Shown here: positions 21,001 through 57,556 of the stretch, piece after piece | Layout: every line of letters starts with the position of its first letter | Numbering within the stretch: the first letter of the stretch is position 1 | Origin: Paratrimastix pyriformis | Lineage: Eukaryota > Preaxostyla > Paratrimastigidae | Length of the DNA stretch: 64,000 nt | Reading direction: 5' to 3' | Assembly: GCA_027972325.1 (NCBI GenBank) | Contig: JAPMOS010000008.1 | Coordinates: 490,001-554,000, forward strand | Notes under the pieces: generated by a model | The model's database searches: none | Told to the model about the DNA's origin: nothing | What the model saw: only the letters and a program-made list of their open reading frames with translations | Made by a program: the position numbers and the translations under genes

Positions 21001-24000
21001 CGCCTGCAACAGCGCCTCGCCGCCAGTGGTCACCCGGCGGCGCCGCCCCGCGGCCGGCCGGCCTCGAAGCAGTGGCGGCCGGGCGGGCAGGCCCCGCCAC
21101 CCCGGGGCTCGTCCAAGCAGGGCCAGGTGCACATCGAGACGGGCAGGCCCCTGCTGGCCTCGGCCGCCCCGGGGGCCAGCGGGGTGCCCCAGGTGCTGGA
21201 GGTCCCCCCGGCCCCGCGCATCCTGTCGGCCGAGAAGCTCATCGCCATGCTCGAGCAGTTCGGGGTCCGCCCCGCCGCCTTTCCTCTCCCTCTCCGCTCT
21301 GCGGGTCCCCCGCCGCTGGTCCCCCCTCATCTGGATCGGCGTCACCACCCCCTGGTCGCGCAGGAGTACCCGGCCAAGTACCGGGTGGCCATCTGGTCGC
21401 AGGTGCTGCGGCTGCCCCGCAATGTGGAGACATTCCGTGAGCTGCTCGCGCGAGGCCCGCACCCCGGCCTGGACCACTTCGAGCGCGTCTACCCGCTCAA
21501 GTCCGCAGCCCATCCATAGCCTCCACCAGCATCGCATAGATCCTTGCAGGGGAACGATGGGATGGTTCGGATCGCATCGGGGGGGATGGGGGAAACGCAT
21601 CAATGCACACGCTCCCCCATCACCACCCCTGCCCCCTGCTGACTTCTGCTGTCTGCTGTCTGCTCCAGGGACGGGCGCCTGGCCCGCCGGACCCACCGGC
21701 TGCTGTCCTGCCTGGCCCATTGGTCGCCCGTCTGCGCGGACATCGGGCCCGACATGGCCCCGGGCTGCTTGGACCCCGCCCCGCCCACGGCCGCAAGTTC
21801 GGCAGGGGCTCCCTCCTCGGCGGCCAACCCGGCCGGGATGGGGGCCCGCCAGACGGGCTGGGTGCCGGCCCTGGTGTTCCCCTTCGTGCGGCTGGTGGGC
21901 GACGACGTGGCCTGCTTCGAAATCCTCTGTACCTCATCAGTCCGCACCCCCCCCCCCCCCTCCCCCCCCCTCCCCCCTTCAGCAGCTCTTCAACCCCCCG
22001 CCCGCACAATCCCGCCCTCCCCGCCCACGGTGGTCTTGCTCACTTACCCCCCGCGCGGCGCGCTCCCCCGTCTCATTGACCCGCAGCGAACTGGTGCCGG
22101 GACTGGTTCGACTACCTGCCGCACCCCCCGCTGGCCGTGCTGAGCCGGCTGGAGGCCCTGCTGGAGCACCACGACCCGGCCCTCCTCGGCCACTTCGTCC
22201 GCCAGCAGATCACAGTCGAGGTCTGCGCCCCTGCCCGCCTGCCCGCCGCCCGTCCGCTGTCCCCCTCCCACCGCGCTTCCCTACCCGCCGCCCGTCCTCA
22301 CGCCTTGCGCTGCTCGGGCGGGGCAGGTGTACGGCTGGTCGCTGCTTGCGAACCTGTTCAGCGAGGTTCTCTCGGGGCCCGAGTGGGCCGCCGTCATGGA
22401 CCACCTGTTCACCTTCCCCAACCGGGGCGGCGGCGTGGAGCTGGTCCTCTGCCTGGCCGTGGCCTACGTCATGTACCACCGCAAGGCCCTCATGGCCATG
22501 CGCGCCCTGCCCGACTTCATCGTCCGTGGCCGCCTGCGCCCTCCCCCCGGCCCGCGGGAAGTGAGCGAGGAGAAGGGTACTGGGTTTGGGGGACGACATT
22601 GCTCATGTTGGCTTTCCCCTTGATCCCGTCGGCATCACCTTGGCCGGGCGGGCAGCGGTTCTTCCACAACCCCAACCCGATCGACGTGCACCGGCTGGTG
22701 GCCCACGCGCACAGCCTCCTTGAGGGCACCGCCCCCGAGATGCGGACGCGCCTCTTCGCCACGGTGGCCCCCTTCACGCCCCTCCCCCGCGGCTCGTACC
22801 CCGTCTTCGACCGGTCCGCCCAACGCCCACGCCCCATCTCCGGCTTCTTGCCCGTCCGTTGGGGAGCAGCGCACCTGCCCAACTTGTTTTTCACCACCGC
22901 CGACCGGGTGGGGGGGCCGGGGCGGCGCAGGTACCCGGTGTACTTCGTGGACTGGGAGCTCCAGGAGCGCCAGCGCATCCGCAAGGAGGAGGAGGAGTAC
23001 CTCAGGAAACAGTCTGTGTGACGCCTCGCAGCTGCCCGCTCGCCCGCCTGCCAGCCAGGCCCCTTTTCCTGCCCTCCTCCTCACGTGGCCCTTCTCGGTC
23101 CCTTCTTCTGTCCTCTGCCGCAGGCGCGTCCTTGCCGAGCTGCAGAAGCGCTGCGACCAGATGGAGAACGAGGAGCGCGCTTGGACGGAGCAGGTCCGGC
23201 TGCCCCCCACCCACCCCCGCCCCCATCGCACCACCTACCCCCGGCCCTGACGCTCCGACATGGCGGCGATGGTCTGCTGACCCGGTCGTGCGTGGCGTGG
23301 CGTGGCTCCCAGCAAACGGCCCTGCGCAAGGCCGAGGAAGCCCGACGGCAGGCCGCCCAGGCGCGGGCCGCGGCCCAGGCCTCCGACGTCGACAGGTCGG
23401 CCGCGCCCCAGCAGCAGCACCTCCCTCGCCCCTTGCCCTGCGACCCACCATCGTCATCATCCCCGGGGGGATGTGGGTCGGGTGTGCTGCTGCAGGCTGA
23501 GCGACGAGCAGCTGGAGGTGCGGCTGCGGCAGGTGCACCTGACGGAGGAGCGCCAGCGGGCCCGCATGCGCAACCTGCTCGAGACCCAGCAGGCCGAGGC
23601 GGCCGCACTCGAGGAGGAGGCCCACCAGCTCGCCCGCCAGCAGGGTATCGCCGCAAAGTCCGCCCCGCATCCACCTTCTCGGGCCCTCTCGCCTGCCCCA
23701 ATGAACCCCCAGACCCCCTTGGACAAGTTGCCCGTGCGAGCCACCCCTCACCCTGCGGCGGCGACCGTGGTGTGGTGTGGATGTGGGGCGGGCCACCAGG
23801 AAGCGTGTGCAAGAGGAGGCGCTGCGGAACCTGGAGTTCGAGGCGCAGGCCCGCATGGACCACGTCGACCTGGAGGAGCAGACCCGCGGGGCGGCGGCCC
23901 ACCTGCGGGCCCACCAGGAGCACCTCCAGCGGGAACACCTGGCCGAGCACCGCCTCAAGGAGGAGCAATGGAAGCGCGAGGTCCGCCCCGCCCCTGCCGT

Positions 24001-26541
24001 GCCAGTTGCCCCACCCACCCAACCAGAGACCTCGCCCGCACCCGCACCCCCGTTCGTATCACTCTGGGCGTCGTACCCTTGCGATGGGCGCCTGGCGTAA
24101 GGCCGAACGCAGATCAACCCCATGCCCCCACCCGCCCCGCCTCCGCGGCTCCTCATCTCATGCGTCGAGCGCCGGCGGTGGTGGTGGCGGCGCTCTGCCG
24201 TTGCTGCTGCTGCTGCTGTGCTGCTTGGCGTGTGGGGCGGGGGGGGCCTGGAGGGCCGGGGATGGGGAGGGCATCCCTTGTGTTTATGGATGGGCCATCC
24301 GCCCGTGGCGCTGGCAGGCCCATCAAAGGCCTCGGGAGACATATGCACACACACAGACACACAGACGCTTCCTCAACTCCTCGGCACCGCCACGCGACAT
24401 GACACTCACTCATTCCCATCCTGGTCCCCCCCCCCCCCCCCCCAGGACGAGGAGCGGACCCTGCGGGCGCGCCTGCAGGCCCAGCGGCGGGACCAGGTTG
24501 CGGTGCGTGTCGAGGCGGAGCACCAGCGGCGGGCCCTGGAGGACCGCACCACCGAGACCGAGCTGGTGCACCGGCTCAAGATGGCCGAGATCGACCGGGA
24601 GCGCCGCCTGCGCCACCTGGCCGAGGACGCCCACACCCGCAGCCAGGAGGAGCTCCTCGAGCAGCGCCACAGGGAGGCCTTCATGGAGGACCAGCAGAAC
24701 CTCGTCCGCAGCCGCAGCCGCCACCACCACCCCCGCCCCCCCTCCTGCCCGACCGCATCTGCGAATATCACCCTGCGGCTTCACCCCAGGCAGCTGATGC
24801 CTGCATGCTCGAGTGTCCATCCTGACCATTGCCCATCCGTCCCCTCCCCTCCCCTCGCATCCCCTCTCTCTCCTCGCCAACAGGAGCAACGGCAGCTCGT
24901 GGTCGAGCAGGAGCGGGCCCACGATGCCCTGCTGCGGCAGTACACCGAGCAGCTGGAGGCGGCCAAGGAGCAGCTGGCCCTCGAGGCCGAGCAGCGCGCC
25001 CAGCGGCTCCGCCAGGCCGAGGCCGACCGGAAGCGGATCGAGCTGGACCTCGCCGCCCACCGCATCCAGGCGGCTCACTCCCAGGACATGTCCGCGGCCG
25101 GTAACCCCCCCCCCCCCCCCTATTTTCCGCCCCGGATCACCTTCTGTCCTGTTGCTCCAACCCGATCACCACCTCACACCTCACGACGCCTTGGTGGTGG
25201 GCGGTTGTGTTTCCGGCTTCTCTGGGCAGCGCCGAGCAAGAGCGCTTCCTGCAGCGCGCCATGGCCGACCTGCAGCGCTCCCGGGCGCGGGACGAGGCCA
25301 TGCAAGAGGAGCTGGTCGGCCGGGAGCGCCTCCTCCAGCAGCTGCTGGCCGAACAGGGCGCCCGCTACCGGGAGATCGGCACCAGCTTCCACAAGGCCAT
25401 CCACCTGCCCGTGCCCGAGCCGGCCGGGCCGGGCAGCCCCGGGGTGCTCTTCCCCATCCACGAGCAGCAGGCGCCCCCAGTCTTCGAGGGCAACCGCTCC
25501 CCGCCCCCGCCCCGTTCCTACCCATCACCGCCCCCGCCCCCACCCACCCAACCCGCCCGGCCGCCCTCGCCGCCCCGGGTCAACACGAGCACCTCATCCC
25601 CCCACCACATGGCCCCCGCGCCCCGGGGCCAGAGCCGCGTACCCCGGTCGACATCCCCCAACAAGGCCGCCGAAGAACCCTTCCCCACCGTACCCCCGTC
25701 GGCGCCCCTGTTCTCCGAGACCGCCGCCCCCGGCAGGCGGCCCCTGCCCCAGGGCCCACCCCCACCCATGTACGGGCACCCGATGGGCCAGTCGGGTCGG
25801 TCGCAATCCCCCCCGGTCTTCCCCACGGTTCCCGGAGCCGCCCTCTTCGTCCCCATGGCCGCCCCGGCGCCCATGGCGCCTCCTCCGCCCGCCCCCGGGA
25901 TGCCCGGCGGCGCGGCCTCCTTCCCCGCCTCCAAGGCTCCCTCGCCCGCCTCCACGGCCCCCCTCCCCAGGCCCACATCACCCTCCCGGGCCGGCACCGG
26001 CGTGGGCGACTCGGCCCCGTCGCCCACCCCGTCACCTCAACCCACACCGCCCCTCTCTGCCTCTGGGCCTGCACGGCCCCCGCTGGAGCCCACCCCGGCT
26101 TACATCACCGCGCCCAGCGTCTTCCCTCCATCGCCTCCCCGCTCGCCCCAGCCACCACCCCACCGGCCTTGGAGCGGAGGCCCTCCGTTCGGGGGTCCCA
26201 GACCCGATGCCCCCGGCCCGATCGCCCCAGGGCCCCCCGCCGAACAGTCATCTTCGTCGTCCCCGGGGTACCCCATGGGCACCACCACCACCACCATGGG
26301 CCCATCCACCAGTGCCGAAGCCCCGACCCCAAGCTCGGACTACCTACCCGCAGAGGGCGAGGGCGAGGAGGCCGTCCCCGACGAGGAGTGGGGCGAGGAA
26401 GGCGAGAGCGTGAGCAGCGAGGGGAGCGGAAGCGTCATCAGCAACGGCAGCACGGGCGGCGACCGGCCTGGGGAAGTCACTTCGACCTCTTATGCTGCCT
26501 CTCACGGGGCAGCGGGGCAGTACTCCGACGCTCCGAGGTAG
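18090..26541 (+). CDS. TBC1D31: TBC1D31 (WDR67) homologue: WD40 repeats, TBC domain, coiled coils
   Basis: In animals TBC1D31 is a centriolar-satellite/pericentriolar scaffold for ciliogenesis. Order here: WD40 blades (SGSRFVCTAIRSDGAYFAAV at about 18108; 'SYTAHKSAVHSIAFHPTGRL'; 'VTLWDPRTWAKKRVL'; 'SGRFLVTTFNDSTVWLWESS'), a spacer, a TBC domain ('EYPAKYRVAIWSQVLRLPRN' at about 21365; LELVPGLVRL-like blocks; 'GWSLLANLFSEVLSGPEWAA' at about 22335), then 'FFHNPNPIDVHRLVAHAHSL', VYFVDWELQERQRIRKEEE and a long Arg/Glu/Gln coiled coil over many exons to about 25400, then a Pro-rich acidic tail. This matches the human order, including 'YP.KYR.FIW' and 'QERERIR..E'. The TBC catalytic Arg and Gln finger motifs are not apparent, as in the family, so Rab-GAP activity is doubtful. 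ATG 18090 is preferred; an in-frame ATG at 17931 lies in AT-rich, probably non-coding sequence. One intron (23981-24445) carries the duplicated element. Confidence 0.87.
18932..18950. repeat. poly-G run
   Basis: A homopolymeric G tract of about 19 in an intron of the TBC1D31 homologue. It is a polymerase-slippage-prone site whose length may vary between reads. Confidence 0.8.
24038..24364 (+). repeat. intronic duplicated element, copy 1
   Basis: This 327-bp segment lies inside the intron 23981-24445 of the TBC1D31 homologue. It matches 48504-48826 with one substitution (T/C near 24161) and a 4-nt length difference in the terminal CA run. It begins GCACCCGCACCCCCGTTCG, contains a GGTGGTGGTGGCGGC stretch and (GCT)n, and ends ATATGCACACACACAGACAC-ACAG. 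Flanking intron bases on both sides are unrelated between the two sites. No open frame resembles a known protein, no terminal inverted repeat was found, and no clear target duplication was seen. Confidence 0.92.
24426..24445 (+). other. poly-C tract forming a 3' splice site
   Basis: Eighteen C followed directly by AG, then the coiled-coil exon 'DEERTLRARLQAQRRD'. Here the polypyrimidine tract is pure cytosine. Confidence 0.75.

Positions 26542-43213: not shown

Positions 43214-57556
<14,343 letters not shown>

Follow-up and report, generated by a model that had tools for sequence, protein, structure and literature searches.

In the 64,000-nt stretch of Paratrimastix pyriformis DNA analyzed here (the window), two genes each carry, within one intron, a copy of the same sequence. 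Positions 24038–24364 and 48504–48826 differ at one base (T/C) and by a 4-nt gap within a CA run, both on global alignment and by blastn, and coincidence cannot explain the 322 identical bases between them. An earlier examination of the letters alone (the sequence-only reading) had described this near-perfect duplicate, and had placed both copies wholly within introns and on the same strand as their hosts; the GT-AG introns between coding frames bear this out. It had also taken the two hosts to be unrelated, and Pfam searches of exon-joined pieces agree, with a RabGAP-TBC domain in the first (E = 8.6e-8) and an SNF2 domain in the second (E = 1.6e-48). These searches confirmed the domains behind the names TBC1D31 and CHD, although the gene names themselves are those of the sequence-only reading. 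In the SNF2/CHD gene, we also noted a 45-nt unit that is tandemly duplicated at 49091–49135 and 49137–49181 (93% alike); the unit covers the exon end LQNNIQ and the following GT, and the 5' splice site seems to be duplicated.

The duplicate is not confined to the window. We searched the assembly (56.06 Mb in 495 contigs; the counts of relatives are lower bounds) with the whole stretch, and found four full-length copies plus a short match at a fifth locus (91% over query positions 12–77). Two shorter queries cut from the stretch, its first 83 nt and its last 130 nt, gave 5 and 4 matches and no additional locus in the assembly. A pattern for the 5' hairpin, allowing up to three mismatches, matched the five relatives without mismatch and five further places at three mismatches; the latter look like chance because a control pattern gave 4. 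Two further patterns, one built on the other arm of the 5' hairpin (3 mismatches) and one a spaced exact match to the 3' hairpin, returned the five relatives and nothing else, and their controls returned zero. At the sensitivity used, the family consists of four near-identical copies (c1–c4) and one diverged paralogue (c5), so the original count of two has to be corrected to five.

All five relatives are intronic and sense-oriented, each in a different gene, the orientation being based for c4 on same-strand coding frames on both sides and for c5 on a reading of the frames. Four of the five fall in a span of ~153 kb on a single contig. The host of c3 was recognized as RBMX2 by its homologues (1393 proteins at E ≤ 0.001; fungal and animal proteins head the best 120, none of which is near-identical), and the host of c5 by its UBR box (Pfam, E = 3.5e-12). 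BRE1/RNF20 had been suspected by eye for the host of c4, and was dropped on the Pfam result given in Table 1. The exons of this gene are flanked by long (GAT)n and ATTGGATGATG arrays (C46:80000–89000).

Table 1. The five relatives, the two host introns of the window, and the parts of the candidate RNA; positions are those of the window unless a contig is named.
Feature	Position	Strand	Remarks
c1	window 24049	+	in TBC-domain gene
c2	window 48515	+	in SNF2/CHD gene
c3	C474, 466 kb		in RBMX2 gene intron
c4	C46	minus	in coiled-coil gene; Pfam gave coiled-coil matches below cut-off only
c5	C474, 386 kb	minus	in UBR-box gene
Host intron 1, TBC-domain gene	23981..24445	+	465 nt, GT-AG, phase 0
Host intron 2, SNF2/CHD gene	48444..48904	+	461 nt, GT-AG, phase 1, by reading of frames
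c1, candidate box H/ACA-like guide RNA	24049..24344	+	296 nt; ends deduced from the ACA box and from alignment with c5
c1, 5' hairpin block	24049..24116	+	H box AGATCA at 24111-24116
c1, 5' pocket arms	TATCAC 24057-24062, GTAAGG 24097-24102	+	predicted pairing with U5 around U46
c1, middle domain	24117..24269	+	predicted long GC-rich hairpin; sole part varying among c1-c4
c1, 3' hairpin block	24270..24344	+	upper stem 24289-24296 / 24317-24324
c1, 3' block, arm AAAGGCC and ACA box	24325-24331, 24339-24341	+	
c2, same candidate RNA as c1	48515..48810	+	H box 48577-48582, ACA 48805-48807

Within the repeat, we delimited a putative RNA of ~296 nt in which a 5' hairpin with a pocket, an H box, a long middle hairpin, a 3' hairpin with a pocket, and an ACA box follow one another. 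The two-hairpin structure was drawn by eye. The 5' block comprises a lower stem (CGUUCG/CGAACG), the pocket, an upper stem (CUGGGCG/CGCCUGG) and a small apical stem, and then AGAUCA; c5 has CC in place in the upper stem, which turns G-U into G-C. The H box reads AGATCA in c1–c4 and AGATTG, which departs from AnAnnA, in c5. In the 3' block, the upper stem GAUGGGCC/GGCCCAUC is followed by the pocket and the ACA box, and its eighth pair is C-G in c1–c4 and G-C in c5 (with one alignment gap moved by hand). The ACA box, 3 nt from the inferred 3' end, reads ACATAT in c1–c4 and ACAATC in c5. H/ACA RNAs place the target uridine 14–16 nt upstream of the H or ACA box; under the pairing that we propose, each half has 14 nt between its box and the first base that pairs with the target, the 5' register having been picked on the U5 match.

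The distribution of differences follows this anatomy. Among c1–c4, no column varies in the 5' block (0/68) or the 3' block (0/75), and 9/153 vary in the middle (seven substitution and two gap columns); the comparison of 9/153 with 0/143 gave a Fisher p = 0.0036. Against c5, only the two blocks can be aligned: 62/68 positions of c1 are kept in the 5' block and 51/75 in the 3' block, the middle is unalignable, and the 5' pocket is identical in all five relatives. Within the middle of c5 (L005 1364–1498, minus strand), ACGCCCATCAAAAACGCC resembles that copy's own 3' pocket side GCGCCCATCAAAGGCC, either as a copied arm or by chance.

Folding energy does not prove the drawn structure. The 327-nt stretch is unremarkable as a whole (z = -1.57; 8/100 shuffles as good), and the 5' and 3' hairpins of c1–c4 folded alone lie in the ordinary range (z from about -0.3 to about -0.5, the 3' hairpin at about -0.5). 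Of the c5 hairpins folded alone, the 5' one scored z = -1.4 and the 3' one z = -4.0, the latter alone in standing out; it is also the only part whose minimum-energy fold shows the full H/ACA form. The minimum-energy fold of the whole c1 element pairs the halves differently from our drawing. The middle domain folds strongly in each of the copies tested, c1, c4, and c5, with 0/200 mononucleotide shuffles as good.

On anatomy and conservation together, the repeat very probably specifies an RNA of the H/ACA type. Rfam at the gathering score found no match in the window, and at E ≤ 10 the five 3-kb loci gave 81 matches and no H/ACA family; those listed were C/D and microRNA models, which fall mostly in the GAT repeats of locus L004. 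A match to an Rfam family is not required of an H/ACA RNA, the families being lineage-bound. A C/D or composite (U85-like) RNA was considered and rejected, as neither [AG]TGATGA nor CTGA occurs in c1, c3, c4, or c5. U17/snR30 is presumably not the class concerned, judging by its characteristic motifs, and telomerase RNA is presumably not either. The mark of a scaRNA is a CAB box (UGAG) in the hairpin loops; because no TGAG occurs in c1, c3, or c4 and the one in c5 sits just after the H box, outside the loops, we do not claim scaRNA membership for an RNA that is predicted to work like an snRNA guide.

Potential targets were sought among the organism's own RNAs, whose snRNA genes over the cut-off number nine for U2, seven for U5, and four for U6. 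A first scan (partial SSU, ITS-5.8S-LSU 5', and U2) gave nothing above the best of 30 shuffles. The full scan covered U2, U5, and U6 (one copy each), the SSU without its first ~420 positions, 5.8S, and ~560 nt of LSU; the rest of LSU, U1, and U4 lay outside it. A diverged 18S rRNA fragment was also seen near position 114100 of C245 (L028), inside a 358-kb contig, with no Rfam match at the gathering score.

We scored 612 uridines, holding the target at a distance of 14 nt from the box in each half. The best site for the 5' pocket was U46 of U5, CCUUUUAC[UA]GUGAU, at 22.6 (next 14.8), and the best for the 3' pocket of c5 was U43 of U5, GCCUUU[UA]CUAG, at 22.8 (next 13.4). Shuffled guides reached these scores within U5 in 0.45% (5') and 0.4% (c5 3') of 2000 trials; counting a hit in any scanned RNA, the rates over 200 trials were 6% and 10.5%. 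The 5' register, which starts one base inward of the stem, was set after the U5 match had been noticed. When nine registers were allowed, U5 stayed at the top for both pockets, and shuffled guides reached the score within U5 in 9 and 12 of 300 trials and had U5 as their top target in 11 and 23 of 300. They reached it somewhere in the scanned RNAs in 154 and 151 of 300 trials, so with a free register the U5 scores by themselves are not significant. Ranking by energy alone discriminates poorly: in an unanchored scan (602 uridines), the 5' pocket had U43 of U5 first, a 5.8S site second, and U46 of U5 third, all within 0.2 kcal, and U5 was absent from the top six for the 3' pocket of c5, whose upstream arm pairs weakly. 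The 3' pocket of c1–c4, which like the lower stem below it is weaker than that of c5, fails the fixed register (10.6, a score that shuffles reach in 39%); with shifts it scored 20.8 on U5, second to an SSU site at 21.4.

The loop-1 pseudouridines of human U5 are at 43 (guide ACA57) and 46 (guide U85/SCARNA10), and the single one of yeast U5 is at the first of these two positions (PMC7960923). The uridines picked by the two pockets are the two human positions. Loop 1 and its closing stem do not vary among the six U5 loci displayed (L046–L051), where the closing stem reads AGUG against AaAg in the Rfam consensus; two of the U5 bases that the 5' pocket would pair with depart from that consensus. 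We weighed the U5 fit against the reading in which the repeat is a box H/ACA guide whose real targets lie in LSU, the 5' part of the SSU, or another RNA outside the scan, and the match to U5 is coincidental. The extent of rRNA and snRNA outside the scan and the high scores of free-register shuffled guides leave room for it. However, both pockets independently had U5 on top, at different uridines that are both modified in human, and the fit takes in lineage-specific U5 bases; we consider a coincidental fit unlikely. Given an H/ACA-type RNA, U5 is quite likely its target: we assign U46 to the 5' pocket of all copies with moderate confidence, and U43 to the 3' pocket of c5 with less.

Upon closer inspection of the flanks, c3 shares 38/39 nt with c1 just upstream, of which c2 shares only the nearest 11, and it shares 24/26 aligned columns with c2 downstream, beyond the CA run that is also in c1. 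The sharp boundaries seen by the sequence-only reading are thus not the edges of the unit. Since c3 shares extra flank with each window copy, the RBMX2-intron copy is the likely, and the simplest, common source of both, with tracts that would have ended at different points. Recent movement, as originally proposed, gains support from the near identity of c1–c4, each in a gene of its own, and gene conversion between copies may have contributed. With at least 150 RVT_1 stretches, the genome is rich in reverse transcriptases, so copying may have gone through RNA; copying of DNA or gene conversion would be an equally good fit.

Near-identical copies in introns of unrelated genes, together with so many reverse transcriptases, could also be expected of a mobile DNA or RNA element (an introner, or SINE- or MITE-like) that prefers introns and whose hairpins are incidental. 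Introner elements have many copies, each forming a whole intron. The family resembles them in its near-identical sequence within introns of unrelated genes, but it has few members, RNA-like conservation with both hairpin blocks free of differences, and ~296 nt inside introns of 439–465 nt (c1–c3), about two thirds and never the whole. In the 60 nt downstream of each of the five copies, A never occurs five or more times in a row, and in four of the five the words shared between flanks do not exceed the length seen in shuffles; in c4, an 11-nt word common to both flanks falls within its GAT array. Of the three candidates in the sequence-only reading, the introner-like element and the short non-autonomous transposon fit poorly on these grounds, and we regard a mobile element as very improbable. 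The third, an intron-carried functional RNA, is favored by the H/ACA-like anatomy, the conservation pattern, and pockets that fit U5.

It is similarly hard to credit that c1–c4 are largely inert duplicates of a working guide such as c5, their constant hairpins reflecting youth or gene conversion. The 3' lower stem and pocket of c1–c4, weaker than those of c5, would suit such pseudogenes; the confinement of all nine variable columns to the middle (p = 0.0036) and the intact 5' pocket in every copy argue against them. An assembly artefact, which the near identity of c1 and c2 might suggest and which the sequence-only reading had named, beside there being only two copies, as its possible undoing, has a negligible chance given five relatives on two contigs, private differences in c2, c3, and c4, and separate flanks and a separate host for each copy.

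Collectively, our results suggest that the repeat is probably an intron-encoded box H/ACA guide RNA with pockets for U5 loop 1 that has been copied from intron to intron. The RNA would be trimmed out after splicing of the host introns and bound by a dyskerin RNP, and its pockets would present loop 1 of U5 snRNA for pseudouridylation. The 5' pocket, identical in the five relatives, would direct modification of U46, and the 3' pocket, well formed in c5 and weakened in c1–c4, that of U43. The four young copies would have spread between introns, and both window copies probably derive from c3.

Such an RNA would share its two predicted uridines with human ACA57 (Psi43) and U85/SCARNA10 (Psi46) (PMC7960923). 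Unlike in human, the two pockets would sit together in a single RNA, most clearly in c5, and there is no sequence-family match; unlike U85, whose C/D part is listed there for Cm45 (PMC7960923), the repeat has no C/D boxes. The copying of guide RNAs into new host introns is described as trans-duplication (PMC2653536). The relatives resemble trans-duplicated intronic H/ACA RNAs in occupying introns of new host genes, and differ in that four copies are nearly identical, the middle hairpin is long, and the organism is a microbial eukaryote. Poly-A and target-site duplication are the marks of snoRNA retroposons (snoRTs) (PMC2730528). The family is like snoRTs in having near-identical guide-RNA copies at new loci in a genome with reverse transcriptases, but it lacks poly-A and a convincing target-site duplication, and its copied tracts reach beyond one end of the RNA or the other. 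Copies of snoRNAs are also treated in sponge and mammal papers (PMC3412847, PMC8178906). In the open-licence literature, judged by titles and the starts of abstracts, we found no single H/ACA RNA whose pockets serve the two loop-1 sites of U5.

One further idea, which we hold to be quite a long shot, is that spliceosomal introns carry and spread a guide RNA that modifies the spliceosome's own exon-aligning loop: the copy in RBMX2, a splicing-factor gene, would seed further introns, and copy number would set the pseudouridine occupancy of U5 loop 1, linking splicing output and U5 modification.

The family is probably known in kind, and what is unusual would be the presence of both loop-1 sites in one RNA and its being caught soon after copying. 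Through the analysis, a repeat in introns that had lacked an explanation becomes a candidate family of RNA genes that can be tested. If our reading is right, one RNA has pockets for both U5 loop-1 pseudouridines, for which human uses two RNAs, and four copies young enough that the spacer hairpin alone has drifted would show the movement of guide RNAs between introns outside mammals.
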